Origin: Candidatus Latescibacterota bacterium | GTDB lineage: Bacteria > Krumholzibacteriota > Krumholzibacteriia > WVZY01 | Length of the DNA stretch: 64,000 nt | Direction of reading: 5' to 3' | Assembly: GCA_011772205.1 (NCBI GenBank) | Contig: WVZY01000026.1 | Coordinates: 1 to 64,000, forward strand | Shown: one piece after another, positions 26,561 to 39,920 of the stretch | Numbering within the stretch: position 1 is the stretch's first letter | Layout: each line of letters starts with the position of its first letter | The notes under the pieces: generated by a model | What the model was told of the DNA's origin: nothing | Seen by the model: only the letters and a program-made list of their open reading frames with translations | The model's database searches: none | Translations under genes and position numbers: made by a program

Positions 26561-28714
26561 TTAGTCTTTGCGTTTCGCTGGAAACACCCCGTTCGGCTGG
26601 ATCAATACCGCCTGCGTCACTTTGCCTTTTTCCATGACAAACTTCACGCTGTATCCTTTGAAGGTCTTCAGCTTGAACTCCGTTCCCAGATAGGGTTCCA
26701 GCTCATAAGTGGGCTGTCCCGGAACCGTCATCGTCAACGTGTTGTCGCTGCGCAGGCTCACCTCGAGCGTGAGTCCCATCATATCGTAGTCACCCGCAAA
26801 CTGCTCGAGATAATCGGGCTCGTACATTTCCTCCGGAGGTTCGCGCTCGAACTCGATCGCATCAACCGTCTGTTCCAGGACCACGGACACGCGGTCGATG
26901 TCGCCGTTCAAATTGGTGAGGAAAGCGAGTTTCAACCCCTTCAGCGGCTCGGTCTTGGAGCGAAATACGTCGTAATGCCAGTGCTCGAGTTCAAATGTCA
27001 TGCCGTTGTACTCGGCCTCGAGTGCTTTGTGCTTTTTTTCGATTTTTATGGGGCCGTAGGCAGGGTGGCTGTAAACGCCAGCATAATCTTCCATCGGGTG
27101 CGATGTTTTCGTGTTTTTCTTTTGATTGATGTCCTCGAGCTCTTCGGCTTGATCCTCCGCTTGTTCGAGCTGAGACCACATCAATTTGTAGCGGCCGTTC
27201 CAATCGATCTCTTCGAGGCCAAGGAGTCGATCGAAGACATTCAATGCGATGACATAAGGGAATGGAGTCCCGTTCAAGTTGGTGAGCACGACAAGCCCAA
27301 TCTTGTCTTTGGGCATGAAGCCCACCTGTGCTGAGAATCCATCTATGTTTCCTCCATGGTGGATCATCTCGTGACCGCGATACGGCTGCACGAACCACCC
27401 TAGACCATACATCATATGCGGCATTTCGGGTTGCGTGAATAGCCTGGCGAGGAGACCTCCGTGCACGACAATGTGAGGGCGATGGAGCTCCTGTATCGTG
27501 AGCGGCGATACCACCTGTGTCTCATTCACCTTGCCTTCGTTGAGCTGAAATTTCACCCATTCTGCCATATCCGCCGCACTCGAATTGATCGAACCAGCGG
27601 GGCCCACGTTGTCGATATTGCGAAAGGGCATTTGCTTGATCTCTTTTTTCTTGCTCTCTTTATCTTTTTTTTCTTCGTAACCCAGAGCGAAGTCGGGCGT
27701 TCGCTCCATGTCTTTTACGGACAGATTGCTGTTGCGCATACGCAGGGGCTCGAAGATCCGTTCCGTCACGAGCTGTTCCCAACTGCTACCTGTTACCTGA
27801 CCGGCCAAATAACCTGCGGTCATAAACATGAGATTCTGGTATTGGAATTCGGTCCGGAAGTCCTCGTTGGGCGCTAGGTAGCGCAGGCGCTCGTATATTT
27901 CTTCACGTGAAAACGAGGATCCGTACCACATGAAATCATGACGGGGAAGACCCGAACGGTGGCATACGAGATCTCGAGGGGTCATCCGCTCGGTTGCAAA
28001 ATCATCGTCGAGCTCGAAGTTCGCCAGATAAGTCCGAACGGGTTTGTCCCATTCGATTGTTCCTTCCTCTACCAGCATTCCCAGGATCAATGTGGTGAAG
28101 GCTTTTGAAGATGAGCCGATTGCAAACTGTGTCTCTGCTGTCACAGGCAGTTCCTTTTCGATATCGCGATGGCCGTAGCCTTTGCACAGCATCACTTCAT
28201 TGTCTTTTACAATCGCAATACCCGCTCCCGGCACATTCCATTCTTTCATGCTCGATTGGACGAATTCATCGAAATCCTTGAGCGCTTCTTCCGGCGATAT
28301 CTTCTCCTCTTTCTCTACCGCTTCGCCGGTGCGTGTGAGTTCGAAGGGAAAGGTCTGACCGGCTTGCGTGAATTCACCTGCGATAGTCAAGCCTTCTTGT
28401 GAAAATATGCCGTCGAAAGTTGGATTTCCTGGAGGGCCTTCGATGGAAAAGATCACTTTGGACCCATCAAACGAGATGTCCTTGAGCGGCAAGTCTTCTG
28501 CGGCCTGCGGGGGGATATCGATCGAGCCGGTCCACATTCCATCCTCACCCTGCACGAAGTCGATAAGGACTTTGAGCTCCATCTGAGGAAGATTGATCGA
28601 GCCTTCCCAATGGCCGGCCAGCGTCGCCTCCAAAGCCAGTGTGGGCGCGTATATCGGACCGAATGCGATGCTCGCGAGAACGATTCCGATGATCAATAGC
28701 GTCAGACGTTTCAT
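26561..28714 (-). CDS. Serine beta-lactamase-fold hydrolase (class C-like) with DUF3471-type C-terminus
   Basis: The 717-residue secreted protein has a signal peptide (about 1-28), an N-terminal lipocalin-like beta domain (about 30-130), and a penicillin-binding-protein/beta-lactamase domain. In that domain SSSK at about residue 201 supplies the nucleophile, YQN is the second motif and HHGG in IHHGGNIDG replaces the KTG motif. This arrangement is typical of EstB-like esterases and D-aminopeptidase relatives, so an antibiotic-resistance role should not be assumed. The C-terminal 180 residues resemble DUF3471. The ATG at 28714 begins the signal peptide. The gene stands alone. Confidence 0.88.
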   Translation of the reverse strand: MKRLTLLIIGIVLASIAFGPIYAPTLALEATLAGHWEGSINLPQMELKVLIDFVQGEDGMWTGSIDIPPQAAEDLPLKDISFDGSKVIFSIEGPPGNPTFDGIFSQEGLTIAGEFTQAGQTFPFELTRTGEAVEKEEKISPEEALKDFDEFVQSSMKEWNVPGAGIAIVKDNEVMLCKGYGHRDIEKELPVTAETQFAIGSSSKAFTTLILGMLVEEGTIEWDKPVRTYLANFELDDDFATERMTPRDLVCHRSGLPRHDFMWYGSSFSREEIYERLRYLAPNEDFRTEFQYQNLMFMTAGYLAGQVTGSSWEQLVTERIFEPLRMRNSNLSVKDMERTPDFALGYEEKKDKESKKKEIKQMPFRNIDNVGPAGSINSSAADMAEWVKFQLNEGKVNETQVVSPLTIQELHRPHIVVHGGLLARLFTQPEMPHMMYGLGWFVQPYRGHEMIHHGGNIDGFSAQVGFMPKDKIGLVVLTNLNGTPFPYVIALNVFDRLLGLEEIDWNGRYKLMWSQLEQAEDQAEELEDINQKKNTKTSHPMEDYAGVYSHPAYGPIKIEKKHKALEAEYNGMTFELEHWHYDVFRSKTEPLKGLKLAFLTNLNGDIDRVSVVLEQTVDAIEFEREPPEEMYEPDYLEQFAGDYDMMGLTLEVSLRSDNTLTMTVPGQPTYELEPYLGTEFKLKTFKGYSVKFVMEKGKVTQAVLIQPNGVFPAKRKD

Positions 28715-29366: not shown

Positions 29367-29399
29367 AAAAAAGGAGTGAGCCGCTCGAATCCTCACTTC
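29367..29399 (-). terminator. Intrinsic terminator of the phosphatase gene
   Basis: On the minus strand GAAGTGAG and CTCACTCC form a stem (7 of 8 pairs) followed by TTTTTT. The first arm overlaps the stop codon of the phosphatase gene. Confidence 0.7.
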
Positions 29400-30313
29400 T
29401 CAGTGAGCACCCGAATCGTATCACCCTTGATTTCGAGGACCTGCGGCTCACCGCCGTAATGGGCGGACATTCCCGCATCTATGCACCAAACTTTGCCGTG
29501 GCAATAAGAGGCGATGCCTTTCACATGATCGGTATGACCAACGATCATGCGCTTGGCGCCGAGTTCAATCAAGACCTCGGCAAGCATTTCGCAATCACTT
29601 TCATCCACATCCAATGAATAACGGCGGGTCCACACGGGACTATCCCTCTTCAGGATCCATTCCGGGCATGGGCCGTCCCCCGCCAGCCAGACCCTGACTT
29701 CCGCATTCAAACGTTCCAGCCCGTAATCCACGTGTTCGGGCAGCACTCCACCATGAACAAACACGTTCTGGCCGATGATGACAACGGTATTGCGCCGCGC
29801 CAGCACCTTTGCATAGATCCCACCGGGCCTGAACGCGGCCACACGCGCCCTCTGCCATTCCTCGTATCCGGCCAGCACGGAGTCGATCCCTGTAACCGTC
29901 ACGGCGTCTTGAAAATCCTCGAAGCCGCCCGGCGTAACGTAGCGCAGGTCGAGCGCCACATTCATCAGCTCGTGATTTCCATTGAGAGCGTGTACCGTGC
30001 CCCCGGGCCGGGCTGCCTCTTCGGCCAAACGGGCGAAGAGATCGAGAACGGCCTGTTCGTCATCGCCGCGGTCCAGTTGGTCGCCGGTCTGCACCAGCAC
30101 CAGTTTGCCGCCGATCCACTGATCTTCGTCATTGATAGCGCCGGCAAGCCTTAGGGCCCGCCGGGTCGCCTCGAGATCACCGTGCAGATCGCCGATCGCT
30201 ACGATTCGGGGCGCCGGTGGGAAACGCAGCGGTATCTCATCCCCGGCCGGAGCCGCACCGATCAGTCCTCCGAAGCAGGCAAGAAGAAGGAAAATCCAGA
30301 GGAATCGCCGCAT
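29393..30313 (-). CDS. Shewanella-like metallophosphatase (calcineurin fold), exported
   Basis: The 306-residue protein starts at 30313 behind GAGGTG and has a signal peptide (RRFLWIFLLLACFGGLIGAA). All metal-binding motifs of the PPP phosphatases are present in order: GDLHGD, GDQLDRG, GNHE, a histidine in VHGGVLPEH, and GHTDHVKG. The GNHE spacing and the HGGVLPEH region point to the Shewanella-like (SLP) subgroup, which acts on phosphotyrosine or other phosphoesters. An exported location means its target is outside the cytoplasm. It ends in a good terminator and is divergent from the methyltransferase pair. Confidence 0.85.
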   Translation of the reverse strand: MRRFLWIFLLLACFGGLIGAAPAGDEIPLRFPPAPRIVAIGDLHGDLEATRRALRLAGAINDEDQWIGGKLVLVQTGDQLDRGDDEQAVLDLFARLAEEAARPGGTVHALNGNHELMNVALDLRYVTPGGFEDFQDAVTVTGIDSVLAGYEEWQRARVAAFRPGGIYAKVLARRNTVVIIGQNVFVHGGVLPEHVDYGLERLNAEVRVWLAGDGPCPEWILKRDSPVWTRRYSLDVDESDCEMLAEVLIELGAKRMIVGHTDHVKGIASYCHGKVWCIDAGMSAHYGGEPQVLEIKGDTIRVLTEK

Positions 30314-30493
30314 GGTGCACCTCGTTTCAACTATGCTAGGGTCCTCCGCAGGTACAAAACACTTGTATTGCTCTGGGCAGCTGGTCAAAATCATAACTGA
30401 CTGGCGAACCCAAGCGCTATACATTTACATAATAATCAATCAGAAATCCGTTCCCATACACATATGAGTCCTTTCGACAAAGGAGTAGAACCC

Positions 30494-31138
30494 ATGCAAA
30501 AAGTATCTCTCATTGTAGTCTTTCTCCTCTTGGTTTTTGGCCTCCTCGATCCTTCCTACGCGTTCCCGGCCCAGCAGAAAGAAACGGAGGAGAGCGATCC
30601 GGATGCCTGGGAAGAACGCTGGAACAGCCGTCAGCCAGCAGACAAAGTAATGGACGCGATTGGGATCGAGCCGGGTATGATGATCGGTGAGATCGGCGCC
30701 GGACGGGGCCGTTATGTGGTGCAGGTTGCCGAAAGGATTGGGCCGAAGGGCAGAGTATACGCCAACGATATCAATTCAACCAAGCTGGAGTATCTCAGAT
30801 TCCGATGCGAGCGCGACAGCATCACCAACGTGGAAACGATTCTTGGAACGGTGACAGATCCCCGGCTGCCGGAAGGAAAGCTGGATTTCGTGTACTTCAT
30901 CAACACCTATCACCACATTGAAAAACCGGTGGAACTGCTGGAAAACACGGTCCCGGCCCTGAAGTCCGACGGCCAGCTGGTCATCATCGAGCATGCCCCG
31001 GAGAAGATGTCATCGCCGGGACACAGCACGCCGGAAGAGACCGTGATTGAACAAGCAACGGAAGCCGGCTTTGAGCTGGTCAGGATGGAGAGATTTCTCG
31101 AGTTCGATAACATCTACATCTTTCGCGTGAAAGAATGA
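30494..31138 (+). CDS. Exported class I SAM-dependent methyltransferase
   Basis: The 214-residue product starts at 30494 behind AAAGGAG and opens with a convincing signal peptide (VSLIVVFLLLVFGLL...YAFPA). The rest is a class I methyltransferase: motif I IGEIGAGRG at about 64-72, an acidic ND after the second strand, and a NTYHHIEKP motif near motif IV. The best-known relatives of this short type are also annotated as secreted. SAM is not known to be plentiful outside the cytoplasm, so the location is puzzling. The next gene, 40 bases downstream, is another methyltransferase with a lipoprotein signal. Confidence 0.85.
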   Translation: MQKVSLIVVFLLLVFGLLDPSYAFPAQQKETEESDPDAWEERWNSRQPADKVMDAIGIEPGMMIGEIGAGRGRYVVQVAERIGPKGRVYANDINSTKLEYLRFRCERDSITNVETILGTVTDPRLPEGKLDFVYFINTYHHIEKPVELLENTVPALKSDGQLVIIEHAPEKMSSPGHSTPEETVIEQATEAGFELVRMERFLEFDNIYIFRVKE

Positions 31139-31178
31139 ACTTATGCGCCGTATCTGCCAAAGGAGGGGGCGTTTCATC

Positions 31179-31970
31179 ATGCGCGTTGTTTATTTGGTTA
31201 CAATTGCAGCATGTGTTTCCGTGTTGGTTGGTTGTCTGCGTGAGGGGCCGGTGGAAGAGGAGGAGCCTCAGCCGTTGAAACCGCTGCTGGCCGTTATCCA
31301 GGACGCGGTCGCCAAGACAGATTCCGCATATGAACAGTTTTATGAAAGAGAATACCGTCCGGAGGAACCGCTGCGTTGGACGAAGATCGCGGGGTGGATG
31401 GTCGAGGATGCGATTGAGCGCCAGTACCCAAAGGCGAAACCGCTTGCCAAGATTTTGGATCTGGGGTGCGGCTTCGGGACGCTTCTGGCTTTTGCAACGA
31501 CGATTTACGGCGTTGAAGGAGTCTGCGTGGATGTTGTTCCCTATATCGAGGGAAAGGATAATCTTCGAGAGCTGTACCATCTGTCATTCGTCGAAGGAAG
31601 CATCGAGCGGGATCCTCTGCCGGGTCCGGAAAAGTTTGGTGTGATCATTTTTACGGAGGTTCTGGAACATCTCAACTTCAAGCCGGTGCCGACATTGCTA
31701 AAAATCTGGAATTCGCTGGAGGAGGGAGGAACGCTTTTTCTCTCCACGCCCGATTCAGACGCCGGTTGGGGACGAAATTACAAGCACTATCAGAGACTCT
31801 CCGATATCCCCGCTGTCAATCCTGAGGCGGAGTGGCTCGACGATCACATCTGGCATTATAACAAGAGGGAATTAATCGGTGTCTTGACCGACGCAGGATT
31901 CAAAATCAAGCGTATCGATCATTCTTATAGTCCCGGGGGCGGGCATTTCAATGTGTGGGCGGTCAAGTAA
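31179..31970 (+). CDS. Lipoprotein-type SAM-dependent methyltransferase
   Basis: The 263-residue product starts at 31179, with AGGAGG upstream, and carries a lipoprotein signal ending VLVGC, with Cys19 as the modified residue. A methyltransferase domain follows: ILDLGCGFGTL at about 92-102, a CVDVVP second strand, and FTEVLEHLNF as motif IV. It lacks the extra domains of known cell-surface enzymes. Directly downstream of the exported methyltransferase, it probably shares its transcript. The acceptor is unknown. If the signal peptide is used, the enzyme would sit on the periplasmic side of a membrane. Confidence 0.82.
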   Translation: MRVVYLVTIAACVSVLVGCLREGPVEEEEPQPLKPLLAVIQDAVAKTDSAYEQFYEREYRPEEPLRWTKIAGWMVEDAIERQYPKAKPLAKILDLGCGFGTLLAFATTIYGVEGVCVDVVPYIEGKDNLRELYHLSFVEGSIERDPLPGPEKFGVIIFTEVLEHLNFKPVPTLLKIWNSLEEGGTLFLSTPDSDAGWGRNYKHYQRLSDIPAVNPEAEWLDDHIWHYNKRELIGVLTDAGFKIKRIDHSYSPGGGHFNVWAVK

Positions 31971-32049: not shown

Positions 32050-34503
32050 CTATCGGATCAAAACCATCTTCCTCGTCTGCTGTTCGCCGTCCTGCCTGAG
32101 CACACAGAAATACAATCCAGATGCGACGTTGTGCCCTTTCTCATCAGTGCCGTTCCAGAGGACGCTGTGCGGGCCTTTTTTATACGATCTGTCCCTGATG
32201 ACTTTAACGAGCTCACCTTTCACGTTGTAAATCTTTATGCTGGCCCTCCCATCCTTCGGCAGGTAAAAGGGGATCCAGGTAATTGGATTGAACGGATTTG
32301 GATAATTCTGATCGAGCAAGAGCTTCGGAGCCGTCCGGCCGTCCGCCAGGTCTTCGACTGCGGATGCAATGTTCACGGCTCCCAGGATCCTGAGCTTTCC
32401 GTGTCCCCAGGTATCGTTGTAAACGGTGCCCGTGAAAGCGTCCGTTGCGCCGTGCGAGGTCAGCAGATATTCCACCTGACCCATCGTCGCCATGGGAAAT
32501 GCTTGTTGCACGATGGCCGCAGCCGCAGCAACGTGCGGCCCTGCGGCGCTGGTTCCGCTGAACTGTCTGTAGCTGCCGAGCGGGTAACCTGCATAGTCGG
32601 TATGGGAGCGCGTCGTGTAGACGTCGTAATTACCCGGCGAGCAGATGTCGAGGAGATGCCAACCGTCGATGCGTTCACCACGACCGCTGAACTTGCTGAT
32701 CTCACCGATATCTATGGAACCTCCACCCACCCCATTGTAACTTTCGAATCCGCGGGTGGAATAGGAGCCGTTGACGAAACAACTGTCGGAGGTTGCAGGG
32801 AAGGTTACGTTCTTGGTGTCGGAGACATAATTGGTGAATTCCGCCCCACCGGCCCATGAGGACAGGTGATCGGCTATATTGCTGACGAACTCGATTACCG
32901 CATCGGAGTTATTGACCACTTTGAGTTGCCATGTTCCCAGAACGTTTGGGTTTGTATTTCTATCGATGTATAAATCGAACTTGTGAGTACCTCTCGAGCT
33001 GGAGCCATATTCGTACCAGAGATAGTAGTTGTCCACATACCAGACTCCGCCGTCGAGCGTGACTTCGGATCCTAAAGGAGTCTTCAGGCGAAAGATCAAA
33101 TCGGACAGATTCGTTCTCCACAGAGTCGAGCCATAGATACGGAGAATAGGACTCCCGTAAACAGGAACATAGATGCCCAGCGTGAGGGAATCCCGGGCGG
33201 ATAAAACGGCGAGCGCGTGCTTGTCCCCGCGCCCGAGGTTGCCCGAAGGAGTGATCTGAATGATCGTGGAGTTCTCGATGGTAATCAGCTCTTCGTCGAG
33301 CGAAGAACCGTCCAGGAATTCATATATGAATCCGCCGAACTCGTACAGCATCGCGTCAGCACCTCTCGCTCTCGCCCAAGGTATGAGATAGGAGATGGGA
33401 ACGCCGGAGAAGAAATATCCGGCAAGGATCTCGGCATCCGGAGCAATACCTGTAAATATGTGGCGCCCCGTCGTTCCGCCGGCGAGAATGCCGCTCACCG
33501 CCGTGCCGTGCCCGTTGTTGTCATCGTCGGAATAAATGAGATCATCGCCTCGCACGCGCTCCACGTTATCGGCGTTCATCGTCGCGTATATTTTCGGCGT
33601 TCCGAGGGCAACGAGCTTTTCACCGACATCGAGTGCGCCGTTATCGTTATCGTCGAGTGCTATGAACAAGGGTTCGCCAAACGTCGGATCGCTCTCCGTG
33701 TATCCCGCAGATGGCCCGAAGTCGCGCTGGGCATTGCCGTTCTGGTCATTGTACAGCCAGTCCCAGTAGGTTTGATAGATGTTGTCATCATTGCCTCTGG
33801 CGTCGCCGCTCCATACTTGCGCAACATCGTAGATCCACCCATCTAAAAAGCGGAGTATCTCTCCCGATGTATATTGTCCGTTTCTGTCCAGGTCAACCGC
33901 GTCGTTGCCCGCATTGAAAATGCCGTTTTGGTTGAGATCGAGCCAGTCGAACGTATCCCCGTTTGCATAAAAGAAAGAGGGATGGAAGACATCGATCCCG
34001 GTATCGAAATCGGCGACCCGCATTCCCTTACCGGTCAAGGGGTAGCCAAGTGGATCTTGATAGCTCCAGGCCGAGTCGGCCTCGATTTCGTGCGCGCTGA
34101 TGTCCAAGGTCGGATAAATGGCCGGTCTCCAGTTTGCTTCCATGCGGAGGACATCCGCCCTGCCGCTTACCTCATCGATCAACAACCAGGGGATGCGGAG
34201 CGGATAGATAGCCCTCGTTCTCGCAACCTGCCCATCGATATAATAGAAAGACACGCCCAGCCGTTCGTACTCTGCAATCTCGGCACCGGATAGAACATGG
34301 TTGAATTTCATCGTCACAACGACTTTTTCGGCTTCTACCACGCCGAGTATCTCTTCGGCCAGCCGTTCCGTCGCCGGAGGTTTTTCCTTTAGCTTCCGCA
34401 GGAATCTCAGCGAGGAGTTGAATTTTTCTTCTCCGGCCATCACTGAATTCGAAATAAGTAACAGGATGAAAAAACCCAGGATATGCACTCGAGATTGCTT
34501 CAT
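32050..34503 (-). CDS. Secreted subtilisin-like (S8) serine protease with C-terminal sorting domain
   Basis: The 817-residue protein starts at 34503 behind AAAGGA and has a signal peptide (ILGFFILLLISNSVMAG). A propeptide region (about 30-130) is followed by the S8 catalytic domain: Asp in DFDTGIDVFH (about 165), His in NNGHGTAVSGILAG, and Ser in FSGTSAAGPHVAA. Two Asp/Asn-rich loops (DLNQNGIFNAGNDAVDLD, DDNDNGALDVGE) look like calcium sites and interrupt the domain. The last 85 residues are the FlgD-like sorting domain (NYPNPFNP, GLYFCVL, RKMVLIR). It is probably exposed at the surface and degrades proteins or processes other exported ones. Confidence 0.92.
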   Translation of the reverse strand: MKQSRVHILGFFILLLISNSVMAGEEKFNSSLRFLRKLKEKPPATERLAEEILGVVEAEKVVVTMKFNHVLSGAEIAEYERLGVSFYYIDGQVARTRAIYPLRIPWLLIDEVSGRADVLRMEANWRPAIYPTLDISAHEIEADSAWSYQDPLGYPLTGKGMRVADFDTGIDVFHPSFFYANGDTFDWLDLNQNGIFNAGNDAVDLDRNGQYTSGEILRFLDGWIYDVAQVWSGDARGNDDNIYQTYWDWLYNDQNGNAQRDFGPSAGYTESDPTFGEPLFIALDDNDNGALDVGEKLVALGTPKIYATMNADNVERVRGDDLIYSDDDNNGHGTAVSGILAGGTTGRHIFTGIAPDAEILAGYFFSGVPISYLIPWARARGADAMLYEFGGFIYEFLDGSSLDEELITIENSTIIQITPSGNLGRGDKHALAVLSARDSLTLGIYVPVYGSPILRIYGSTLWRTNLSDLIFRLKTPLGSEVTLDGGVWYVDNYYLWYEYGSSSRGTHKFDLYIDRNTNPNVLGTWQLKVVNNSDAVIEFVSNIADHLSSWAGGAEFTNYVSDTKNVTFPATSDSCFVNGSYSTRGFESYNGVGGGSIDIGEISKFSGRGERIDGWHLLDICSPGNYDVYTTRSHTDYAGYPLGSYRQFSGTSAAGPHVAAAAAIVQQAFPMATMGQVEYLLTSHGATDAFTGTVYNDTWGHGKLRILGAVNIASAVEDLADGRTAPKLLLDQNYPNPFNPITWIPFYLPKDGRASIKIYNVKGELVKVIRDRSYKKGPHSVLWNGTDEKGHNVASGLYFCVLRQDGEQQTRKMVLIR

Positions 34504-34818
34504 GACGTGATCCTTTCGAGCATTGAGATGGTGCGCTGGCGCATTGAGAGGCTGTAAACGGTCATATGGAGAAAAGCAGAGCTGCAAAACTCCGGGTGGG
34601 GTGTTTTAGGGTCTTTGTTATTTATAATAATAATATAATTTTAGTTGAATAGTCAATGGGGAAAAAGAATAGGTTCATTACGTCAGTTGCTGTCATGCCA
34701 GCAGTTAAATTTCTATGGCTCCTGCCTGATCAAGTTATTATATTCCTTTTGATTTTAAATCCTCCTTTTTTGGCTGAATCTCTGGCCGCGTTAATCCGTA
34801 CATTATTTGGGTGACCCA
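34504..34818. other. AT-rich region between divergent protease and kinase genes
   Basis: This 315-base region holds a very AT-rich core at about 34615-34650 and should carry promoters for both genes. No reading frame here has a ribosome-binding site. Confidence 0.45.
34627..34656 (-). promoter_or_regulatory. Predicted promoter of the subtilase gene
   Basis: On the minus strand TTGACT (complement of 34651-34656) is followed after 17-18 bases by TTATTA/TATTAT in an AT-rich context, pointing to the protease gene about 120 bases away. Confidence 0.4.
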
Positions 34819-36936
34819 ATGATAGGCAAGTCCATAGCGCATTATAAAATACTTGGACAGCTCGGCGGGGGCGGCATGGGCGTTGTGTATAAGGCCAAAG
34901 ACACCAAGCTCGGGCGAACCGTCGCGCTCAAGGTGTTGTCCTCGGAACAGCACGTTTCCGAGAACGACAAGGAACGCTTACTTCGAGAAGCTCGGGCAGC
35001 AGCTGCGCTTAGACATCCCAACATATGCACGGTGTACGAGATTGGCGAGGACGACGGCATCTCCTATATCTCGATGGCTCATGTGCCAGGAAAGAGTCTA
35101 AAGACAGTTATCGAGGAAGGCCCGCTGGAAATCGAGCAGGCTTTGGATATCGCGATACAGGTCGCTGAGGGGCTTCAAGCGGCACACAAGAAAACCATTG
35201 TGCACCGGGATATCAAGAGCGCCAACATCTTGATCGATGAGATCGAACAGGTGACGATTCTGGATTTTGGTCTTGCAAAGCCGTCCACGCAAGCGGAGCT
35301 GGCCGAGGAAGGAGGTACGGCGGCCTATATGTCCCCGGAACAAGCCCGGGGAGCCGTTCTGGATCATCGGACCGATATCTGGTCACTGGGCGTTTGTTTG
35401 TACGAGATGATCGCCGGGCGGCTTCCATTCGAAGCAGAGCAAGGGTCCGCCATCATCTACCAGATCCTCAATCAAAGCCCTCCGCCTTTGTCTGAACTTC
35501 GATCGAATGTCCCCGAAAAAGTATTGCGGATCGTGGAAAAAGCCATGGCGAGTGATCCTTACAGCCGCTATCAGCATGTGAGTGAAATGCTCGCAGAGCT
35601 GAAGTTTACACGGGAAACACTTCGTGCCGAAGCCTCCGCGGTGCCCGGGAGCGAACCATCTGTTGCTGTTCTTCCATTTACGGATATGAGCTCCGATAAA
35701 GGACAGGAGTATTTCTGCGACGGAATGGCCGAGGAAATCATCAACAGCCTTGCACACATCGAAGGTCTGCGCGTCGTGTCACGCACGTCATCCTTTGCGT
35801 TCAAGAATAAAAATATGGATATTCGCGAAATCGGCGCAAGGCTCAGTGTCGATACAATACTCGAAGGAAGCGTTCGCAAAGCAGGCGATAGATTACGAAT
35901 TACAGCACAGCTAGTCAGTGTTAAAAATGGTTACCATTTATGGTCCGACCGATATGATAGAGATTTACAAGATGTATTTAGCATTCAAGACGAGATCAGC
36001 GAGAATATCGCCGATGCGTTGAAAGTACGGCTGACGGAGAAAGAGAGGCGTGCTATTGAGAAAGTTCCAACGACAGACATAGAAGCATATGATTTTTATA
36101 TTCGTGGCAGGCAGTACTTTCAAGGGCTCGGTGTTAAAGGTCTCGAATATGCGCGAAACATGTTCACCAGTGCCATAATCCGAGATCCGCGCTATGCACT
36201 CGCCTACTGCGGCCTCGCAGACTGCTATTCAATGATCTACATGTACTACGATAGCGACAAGACAAACATCGAGAATGGAGTGACGGCGAGCCAGAAAGCT
36301 CTGGAACTGGATAGTGAACTCGCTGAGGCGCATGCATCCTATGGTCTCGCTGTTTCACTGGACGGCCGCTACGAAGAGGCGGAAAGAGAATTGCAACGGG
36401 CCATCGAAATTTCTCCAAAGCTTTTTGAAGCCTACTACTTTTATGCTCGTACATGCAGGGTACAAGGCAAGCTCGAAGAGGCTATCGAAATGTTTGCAAA
36501 AGCAAGCGAGGTGCGGCCGGAAGATTATCAAGCACCTATCTTGATGGCGGATACTATTCGCGGGTTGAAACGGCCTGAAGAAATGCGAAACACGTTTCGA
36601 CGTGGATTAGCCGTTGCCGAAAAGCATCTGGAATTCCATCCGAAAGATGCGAGGGCCTATTACCTTGGTGCTCACGCACAATTAGCTTTGGGTGCGAAGG
36701 AAAAGGCTCTCGAGTGGAATGAGCAGGCTATGAAGCTTTGCCCCGATGATCCGGCAACTCTCTACAACGCCGCCTGCCTCTTTAGTGTAATGGGGGAATA
36801 CGACAAGTGCTTCGAATGCTTCGAAAAGGCAGTGGACAAAGGGTTTGCCCACCGCAAATGGCTCGAAAACGATCCCGACCTCGAAGCGATCCGCAGCGAT
36901 CCCCGCTACGAAACCCTTCTGGAAAGACTCCGATGA
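34819..36936 (+). CDS. Ser/Thr protein kinase with TolB/FlgO-like module and TPR repeats (kinase 1)
   Basis: The 705-residue protein has an N-terminal Hanks-type kinase domain with LGGGGMG, catalytic Lys38 (VALK), HRD at 129-131 and DFG at 149-151, plus [10 protein letters not shown] in the activation loop. From about 275 it continues with SVAVLPFTDMSS and CDGMAEEIINSL, the TolB-N/FlgO-like module seen on many such kinases and on adenylate cyclases. TPR repeats run from about 430 to the DPRYETLLERL end. I see no transmembrane helix. The ATG at 34819 matches the start of its paralog. Target and stimulus are unknown. Confidence 0.92.
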   Translation: MIGKSIAHYKILGQLGGGGMGVVYKAKDTKLGRTVALKVLSSEQHVSENDKERLLREARAAAALRHPNICTVYEIGEDDGISYISMAHVPGKSLKTVIEEGPLEIEQALDIAIQVAEGLQAAHKKTIVHRDIKSANILIDEIEQVTILDFGLAKPSTQAELAEEGGTAAYMSPEQARGAVLDHRTDIWSLGVCLYEMIAGRLPFEAEQGSAIIYQILNQSPPPLSELRSNVPEKVLRIVEKAMASDPYSRYQHVSEMLAELKFTRETLRAEASAVPGSEPSVAVLPFTDMSSDKGQEYFCDGMAEEIINSLAHIEGLRVVSRTSSFAFKNKNMDIREIGARLSVDTILEGSVRKAGDRLRITAQLVSVKNGYHLWSDRYDRDLQDVFSIQDEISENIADALKVRLTEKERRAIEKVPTTDIEAYDFYIRGRQYFQGLGVKGLEYARNMFTSAIIRDPRYALAYCGLADCYSMIYMYYDSDKTNIENGVTASQKALELDSELAEAHASYGLAVSLDGRYEEAERELQRAIEISPKLFEAYYFYARTCRVQGKLEEAIEMFAKASEVRPEDYQAPILMADTIRGLKRPEEMRNTFRRGLAVAEKHLEFHPKDARAYYLGAHAQLALGAKEKALEWNEQAMKLCPDDPATLYNAACLFSVMGEYDKCFECFEKAVDKGFAHRKWLENDPDLEAIRSDPRYETLLERLR

Positions 36937-37685: not shown

Positions 37686-39920
37686 ATGATCGGCCGAACC
37701 ATATCCCATTACAAGATCCTCAAGAAGCTGGGCGAAGGAGGAATGGGCGTCGTTTATAAGGCCGAAGACACCAAGCTCAAGCGGACCGTCGCCCTCAAAT
37801 TTTTATCGCCCCATGCCGTCGGAAGCGAAGAGGAGAAAAATCGCTTTGTTTCCGAAGCTCAAGCCGCTGCTGCACTGCATCACCCCAATATCTGCACCAT
37901 TTATGAAATCGAGGAGGCAGAAGACCAGATATTCATCGCTATGGCCTACATATCCGGTCAAAGCCTGAAGGAGAAACTAAAAAAGGGTCCTTTGGATCTC
38001 GATGAAGCTCTAAGTATCACAGTTCAGATCGCTAAAGGATTGCAAGAAGCGCACGATAATGGAATCGTTCATCGGGATATCAAAAGCGCAAATATAATCA
38101 TCACCGATAAGGGGCAGGCGACCATTATGGATTTTGGACTGGCCAAGTGGGCCGGTCAGAGCGGGATAAGTAGAGGAGGGGCAATCATAGGCACGGCGGC
38201 TTATATGTCTCCTGAACAGACGCGTGGGGAAGTGGTCGATCAACGCGCGGACATCTGGGCGTTGGGTGTGTGTCTGTATGAAATGCTTACGGGACAGCTG
38301 CCCTTCAAGGGTGAATATGATGCGGCTATAGCCTATTCTGTTTTGAACGAGGATCCCATACCGTTATCCGCGCTTCAGCCCAATGTTCCGGCCGAGCTGA
38401 GGCGCGTTGTAGATGGAGCGCTCGCTAAGAACTTGGATAAGCGGCGTCAATCCGTCGATGAACTACTTACCCAGTTGGAGTCATTGAGAAAGAAGCTACT
38501 TATCCAACCGCCAGCTGAACCCACTTCTGTAAGCCCACCCCGACCTTCAGTCGCTGTGCTCCCGCTTGCGGACATGAGCCCGGAAAAGGACCAAGAATAC
38601 TTTTGCGACGGGATAGCGGAAGAAATCATCAACGCTCTCGTAAAAGTAGAAGGCTTGCATGTTGTAGCCCGAACTTCGGCGTTCTCATTCAAGGGCAAGA
38701 CGGAGGACATACGCGAGATTGGCAGGAGACTCAGTGCCAGCGCAGTGCTCGAAGGGAGCGTGCGGAAAGCGGGAAATAATTTACGAATTACAGCGCAGCT
38801 CGTTGACGTACAGGATGGTTTTCATATTTGGTCCGATCGTTACGATCGTCGGATGGAGGATATATTTGCCATCCAGGACCAAATCTCCCAAGCTGTTGTG
38901 GACGCGCTCAAGGTGAAGCTTATAGGTGCTGCCAGAGAGCCGCTTGTAAAGCGTTATACCGAGAATCTCGAGGCATACAATCTGTATTTGAAGGGCCGTT
39001 TCTACTTGAACAAGAGGACTGAGGAGGCATTCAATAAAGGTGTGGAGTGCTTCGAACAGGCCATATCGGAAGATCCGAATTACGCTTTGGCTTATGCCGG
39101 CTTGGCCGACTCTTATAATTTGCTAGGAAATTATAGCGTCCTTCCCCCTAAAGATACCTTCCCAAGAGCCAAGATCTTGGCGGCCAAGGCGCTGGAGTTG
39201 GATGATACTATCTCCGAGGCGCATACCGCATTGGCATACGTCCACATGTATCACGACTGGGATTGGAAAAAGGCAGGGCTAGGATTCAAGCGGGCATTGG
39301 AACTCAATCCCAGCTGCGCAACGGCCAATCATTGGTATGCCGAATATCTCATAATGACAGGGCGGATGGATGAGGCTCACGCCCAAGCACGAAAAGCTCT
39401 GGAGTTCGATCCTCTATCACTCATCCTATATACGTTACAGGGATGGACTTATCACTTCGAACGTGATTACGATCGAGCTATAGAACGATTCCAAAAAGGC
39501 CTAGAGATGGATCCTGGTTTCGCCGCGACACTTTTCTTCCTCGGCATGGCATGTGTGCAAGCATCTCAATTCGAAGACGCTCTTGAGAATATAAAAAAAT
39601 CACAGTCCTCTTTTGAAGGCTCGACACTGACCGTGGCAGCCCAAGGGTACATTCATGCATTGTCGGGTAAAATAAGCGAAGCAAGGCAAGCACTCGATGA
39701 ATTGAAAAAAATGTCCGCGAAAAGCTACGTTTCGTCATATTACAGAGCGGCAATATGTACAGGGCTTGGTGAGAAAGACCGGGCATTCGAATGGCTGGAG
39801 CAAGCTTATGAAGAGCGCGATCCATGGTTGTCCCTTCTTAAAGTCGATCCAATCTGGGATGTGCTGCGATCTGATCCAAGATTCTCCACGATGCTCGAGA
39901 AAGTGGGCTTGGACAAGTGA
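37686..39920 (+). CDS. Ser/Thr protein kinase with TolB/FlgO-like module and TPR repeats (kinase 2)
   Basis: The 744-residue paralog of kinase 1 has the same order of parts: LGEGGMG, Lys38 (VALK), HRD at 129-131, DFG at 149-151, [10 protein letters not shown], then [20 protein letters not shown] and LEGSVRKAG, and TPR repeats to residue 744. All kinase motifs are intact, so it should be active. The repeat part is longer than in kinase 1 and differs most, so the two may sense or bind different partners. Its stop overlaps the GTG of a decayed third copy. Confidence 0.92.

Follow-up and report, generated by a model that had tools for sequence, protein, structure and literature searches.

The gene pair

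The window, meaning the whole stretch of 64,000 nucleotides of DNA that was analysed, carries two genes on the same strand, 40 bp apart, that code for class I (Rossmann-like) methyltransferases with predicted export signals. Gene 1 (30494-31138, plus strand, 214 amino acids) begins at the ATG at 30494, and a Shine-Dalgarno sequence, AAGGAG (30480-30485), lies 8 nt before it. Its N-terminus, MQKVSLIVVFLLLVFGLLDPSYA/FPAQQ, is a Sec-type signal peptide by both reading and a crude caller, covering residues 1-23 (30494-30562) and ending at PSYA/FP, and it recurs in relatives. The caller passes 2.9% of shuffles of this N-terminus. The next possible starts are a TTG at 30530, which has no Shine-Dalgarno sequence, and an ATG at 30650 inside the domain; between signal and domain there is no start that preserves the first domain helices. 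The domain scores above the curated Pfam cut-offs for both Methyltransf_31 (51.7 bits, cut-off 27) and Methyltransf_11 (47.3 bits, cut-off 21.2). Motif I is intact (GEIGAGRG, residues 65-72), with the stretch EIGAGRG, residues 66-72, located by alignment A3 at 30689-30709. In class I enzymes, the acidic residue that ends strand 2 makes the ribose contact. In gene 1 this residue is Asp92 (30767-30769), identified by alignment A3 and by a strand at residues 87-92 of the structural model.

Gene 2 (31179-31970, plus strand, 263 amino acids) begins at the ATG at 31179, 12 nt after the Shine-Dalgarno sequence AGGAGG (31161-31166), and its product is a predicted exported, lipid-anchored class I methyltransferase. 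The N-terminus, MRVVYLVTIAACVSVLVG/CLREG, consists of a lipoprotein signal peptide (residues 1-18, 31179-31232) with the lipobox LVGC (31224-31235), in which Cys19 is the predicted site of lipidation and is followed by Leu at +2. The caller passes 25% of shuffles of this N-terminus, so the case for the signal is made by the lipobox and by the Sec-type export signal of its relative L048, and not by the score. There is one possible internal start, a TTG at 31275, and its AGGAGG falls within a run of Glu codons. The protein matches Methyltransf_23 at 62.6 bits (cut-off 27). Its motif I is LDLGCGFG (residues 93-100, 31455-31478, alignments A4 and A5), and Asp118 (31530-31532), which is invariant with L048, ends strand 2 (residues 114-118 of the model).

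An earlier sequence-only reading had described these open reading frames, the Sec signal, the lipoprotein signal and the intact motif I of both genes, and all are present where it had placed them, as are the ribosome-binding sites. It had named a pocket unable to bind SAM as grounds for rejection; none of the SAM motifs has been lost. In the structural modelling that it recommended, the model of gene 1 has the class I methyltransferase fold (pLDDT 91) and a low-confidence N-terminal helix, as is expected for a cleaved signal. For gene 2 the model is weak (pLDDT 66, from a four-row alignment), and its fold matches are methyltransferases.

Export signals in relatives

For the signal test, relatives of gene 1 were chosen by the similarity of their methyltransferase domains only, and their N-termini were then read. 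Among 80 searched genomes from the window's phylum, seven contain such relatives, and all of the relatives with a readable N-terminus have a signal. A two-row alignment scan of public genomes gave two loci, one of which, from Aminicenantes (whose phylum we take to be Acidobacteriota), led to Acidobacteriota via genome G080. In that phylum, gene 1 relatives (E <= 1e-20) are found in 137 of 396 sampled genomes. The N-termini compared were the best 29 usable ones from Acidobacteriota, 20 lower-ranked ones that were not picked by signal, and 8 from the window's own phylum.

With starts ranked by codon and Shine-Dalgarno sequence, an export signal is seen at the top-ranked start in 44 of the 57 relatives and at any start in 55. 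As a control, 30 other Methyltransf_11 proteins from the window's genome were given the same treatment, and signals were seen in one at the top-ranked start and in four at any start. The calls come from a crude script and not from SignalP, so that single calls are weak, but the contrast between relatives and control is not (Fisher p 8e-12 for the top-ranked start and 9e-16 for any start). One relative, L025, was scored as a miss though its N-terminus is plainly hydrophobic. Signals are also present in relatives from Methylosinus (WP_161915469.1), Geminocystis (WP_066122607.1) and Delftia (WP_031942805.1). Those without a signal are the Cohnella, Peptoclostridium and Enterococcus (Bacillota) relatives and, likewise, a distant Rhizobium protein. 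All of the annotated named relatives carry only the name “class I SAM-dependent methyltransferase.”

The kind of signal flips within the group to which gene 1 belongs. Gene 1 itself is Sec-type, and its close relatives L016, L020, L023 and L030 have lipoprotein signals, which suggests that export has been kept rather than one kind of signal. A check for Tat-type signals, also recommended earlier, was negative in that neither gene has a twin arginine; a loose twin-arginine pattern occurs in 1 of 57 scanned proteins. Homologs that start downstream of the signal peptides, which would have told against the sequence-only reading, are not what is seen among diderms. Since the signals recur in relatives across several phyla, those of genes 1 and 2 are, as far as sequence comparison can tell, real and not artefacts, as had been supposed.

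In the 80 and 396 genomes, and in a further profile search of 38 genomes, the only close relative of gene 2 is L048 (genome G268, Acidobacteriota), with 48-50% identity and an N-terminus, MPWISIFLLTTAPWVLA, that is a Sec-type export signal. The matches that come after it, L012 and L013, are cytosolic. Judged from two sequences, gene 2 thus seems to have been recruited to the envelope independently.

A clade of predicted exported methyltransferases

In a quick tree of 68 sequences built from the domain only, with the signal region cut away, 59 proteins with export signals lie on one side of a branch and 9 without them lie on the other (SH-aLRT 94). The full-protein tree needs three changes; these concern L073, which is unrelated, and the Rhizobium row, which has a long branch. 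In that tree gene 1 is grouped with L002 and Acidobacteriota proteins, 14 rows in all. Gene 1 has an export signal and falls on the exported side of the domain-only tree. Among the 59, the first and last Gly of the GxGxG in motif I are kept in 59/59 and the middle one in 56/59, and at least 90% of the 35 rows in alignment A3 retain Asp92. Some relatives, namely L006 and L010, have an altered motif I (SAT). Of seven close pairs, six have dN/dS ratios of 0.06-0.21, and the pair L027/L028 has 0.61. The window's genome, beyond what the earlier reading had noticed, holds at least two further class I methyltransferases with predicted export signals.

Gene 1 belongs to a large, apparently undescribed clade of methyltransferases with export signals, a membership that the earlier reading had also not noticed. 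Among the open-access papers searched, none was found on exported, extracytoplasmic, periplasmic or lipoprotein methyltransferases of this kind. Both the fold and the superfamily are known ones, and those papers describe no broad exported clade whose SAM motifs are intact, an absence that is not proof of novelty.

Known families and folds

Both proteins belong with the class I SAM-dependent methyltransferase superfamily, having its glycine-rich motif I and strand 2 acid as well as its Rossmann-like fold (seen in the gene 1 model and its match to 3dh0, and in the same fold matches for the weaker gene 2 model). In Pfam and NCBIfam, they score above cut-off for general methyltransferase profiles and for no specific family. 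Gene 1 is matched best, in sequence as well as in fold, by 3dh0, a SAM-dependent methyltransferase of Aquifex aeolicus with the same core and motif I (phmmer 1.2e-15; Foldseek 2.3e-18; TM 0.74/0.84), which is known as a structure only. The nearest curated families by profile, UbiE/MenG and UbiG, are cytosolic quinone enzymes, unlike the signal-bearing genes 1 and 2. Identity with UbiE/MenG was rejected at 29.6 bits (NCBIfam equivalog cut-off 378), as was that of gene 2 with UbiG at 33.3 bits (cut-off 102.95). ArsM was likewise rejected: the score is 23.9 bits against an NCBIfam cut-off of 263, and gene 1 has a single Cys (Cys105) in place of several conserved ones.

Other systems offer partial parallels. 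The prepilin peptidase/N-methyltransferase PilD is known to methylate exported pilins with SAM, so that its methylated product, too, is found beyond the cytoplasm, but it is a polytopic membrane enzyme of unrelated fold. It has been discussed as having a domain predicted to lie on the cytoplasmic side and as drawing its SAM from the cytoplasm (PMC3584216), which shows how strong the assumption of cytoplasmic SAM is. A second parallel is offered by secreted methyltransferases of Plasmodiophora and Mycobacterium tuberculosis, which leave the cell and act in hosts. They differ in taking SAM from the host and in not forming a broad clade of free-living diderm bacteria.

Possible function outside the cytoplasm

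The explanation preferred here, to which we give a probability of roughly 60%, is that genes 1 and 2 encode genuine SAM-binding class I methyltransferases that act beyond the cytoplasm. Both products would cross the membrane unfolded through the Sec pathway. The signal of the gene 1 product would then be cleaved to leave a soluble periplasmic enzyme, and the gene 2 product would be lipidated on Cys19 and so anchored to a membrane. Each protein would fold outside, use motif I and the strand 2 acid to bind SAM, and methylate an envelope or periplasmic substrate. Since proteins pass through Sec in unfolded form and neither gene has a Tat signal, SAM could not ride along with them; export by Tat with SAM already bound was rejected because there are no twin arginines. 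If the proteins are enzymes, SAM must therefore be in the periplasm, and it would arrive there separately through leakage, an exporter (none was identified) or lysed neighbours. An exported location is very probable for both proteins and SAM binding is likely; methyl transfer in the periplasm is a somewhat bolder prediction that still seems the better bet.

A difficulty is that SAM is regarded as cytosolic. The proteins may be exported without being methyltransferases, the fold binding SAH, adenosine, nucleotides or another adenosine-containing or small ligand, or having a role in scavenging, sensing or binding. The periplasm is not expected to contain SAM, and class I folds that do not transfer methyl groups exist, one of which, the SAM-binding hydroxylase RdmB, was matched by the fold of gene 2. 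The SAT form of motif I in L006 and L010 also fits a different ligand. However, the exported clade is highly divergent and yet shows almost no variation in motif I or in the acid of strand 2, and drift would be expected in a pocket that held neither SAM nor anything closely analogous, which leaves this alternative unlikely, if far from negligible.

It is much harder to keep the proteins in the cytosol, whether through misread N-termini with internal starts or as uncleaved membrane anchors facing inwards. The internal TTG at 31275 in gene 2 with its AGGAGG would allow it, the signals are computed ones, and the Bacillota relatives have no N-terminal extension. Against this, gene 1 lacks a usable internal start ahead of its domain, cleavage sites or lipoboxes are present, and signals that occur in 55 of 57 relatives while switching between Sec and lipoprotein types would be pointless for cytosolic proteins, so that this explanation is highly improbable. 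There is also a very slim chance that the enzymes act outside the cell on neighbours' molecules or metal(loid)s with SAM from lysed cells, much as host-targeted methyltransferases use host SAM: His-rich linkers follow the signal in L005, L006, L010 and the Methylosinus protein, whose gene is located after feoB-feoC, and the structures that match the fold of gene 1 include arsenite methyltransferases, but neither gene 1 nor gene 2 has such a linker, the single Cys of gene 1 is unlike ArsM, which binds arsenite through several, and no metal resistance genes adjoin the pair in the window.

Periplasmic methylation by genes 1 and 2 could also be part of something wider. It is tentatively proposed, at a little under even odds, that SAM-dependent methylation in the periplasm of diderms is the work of a single ancient exported class I clade together with later recruits such as gene 2. 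If true, this would call for a periplasmic pool of SAM and a means of filling it. Class I methyltransferases have been assumed to be active where SAM is made, and a widespread clade under purifying selection outside the cytoplasm would imply either periplasmic SAM or another use of the fold. It would also assign a function to genes now labelled merely as class I SAM-dependent methyltransferases.

Gene neighbourhood and clustering

Directly upstream of gene 1 and divergent from it is a gene for a calcineurin-like phosphoesterase (29393-30307, minus strand). This protein, a PF00144/DUF3471 protein (26561-28714) and a subtilase-like protein named by sequence reading (32050-34587) all have exported-looking N-termini. 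Farther along lie two similar tandem Ser/Thr protein kinases with repeat-like C-terminal parts (34807-36936 and 37686-39920). A promoter and terminator scan gave matches no more numerous than in shuffles. Most of the genes next to 13 close relatives code for secreted proteins, with no shared pathway.

The earlier reading had implied that the two genes form a conserved pair, and this did not hold: there is no second tandem of genes 1 and 2 in the genomes searched, and the gene 1 relative in G268 is on a different contig from L048. Clustering of methyltransferases does recur, though the pair is not conserved. For example, in genome G148 a protein with an export signal combines a gene 1-type domain with a TehB-like methyltransferase domain, and the gene that comes immediately after it encodes another exported relative of gene 1. 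In G123, two gene 1-type domains are fused in a single exported protein.

Two-methyltransferase-domain fusions with export signals were noted at L089:8048-10207 and L022:895-2070, the former followed directly by another exported methyltransferase. In the window's genome, a paralog of gene 1 (G000:C75:75396-75899; L008, 1066-2037) has a signal peptide, a repeat-like N-terminal part of about 110 residues and then the methyltransferase domain, an architecture shared by L003 and L009. The same genome has an exported class I methyltransferase of another branch, L073 (G000:C64:10782-11048), which begins MHKGKDIILIAILSTVVPIVIAFSQ..., and a protein-L-isoaspartate methyltransferase-like protein, L080 (G000:C3:22102-22332), the start of which is uncertain and the longest form of which begins with a possible signal, MNLLLFILALSLSWTHFPM....

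Three genomes have exported proteins encoded close to their gene 1 relatives (L089:10204-11592, L096:4680-6254 and L088:10642-12000). Those of L089 and L096 have no Pfam match, and both have an HExxH-type motif (VHEQFH and VHEAFH). On the Methylosinus plasmid pMSC49c (L124:1-3040), the exported methyltransferase with the His-rich linker comes after feoB and a FeoC-like gene, a context hinting at metal biology.
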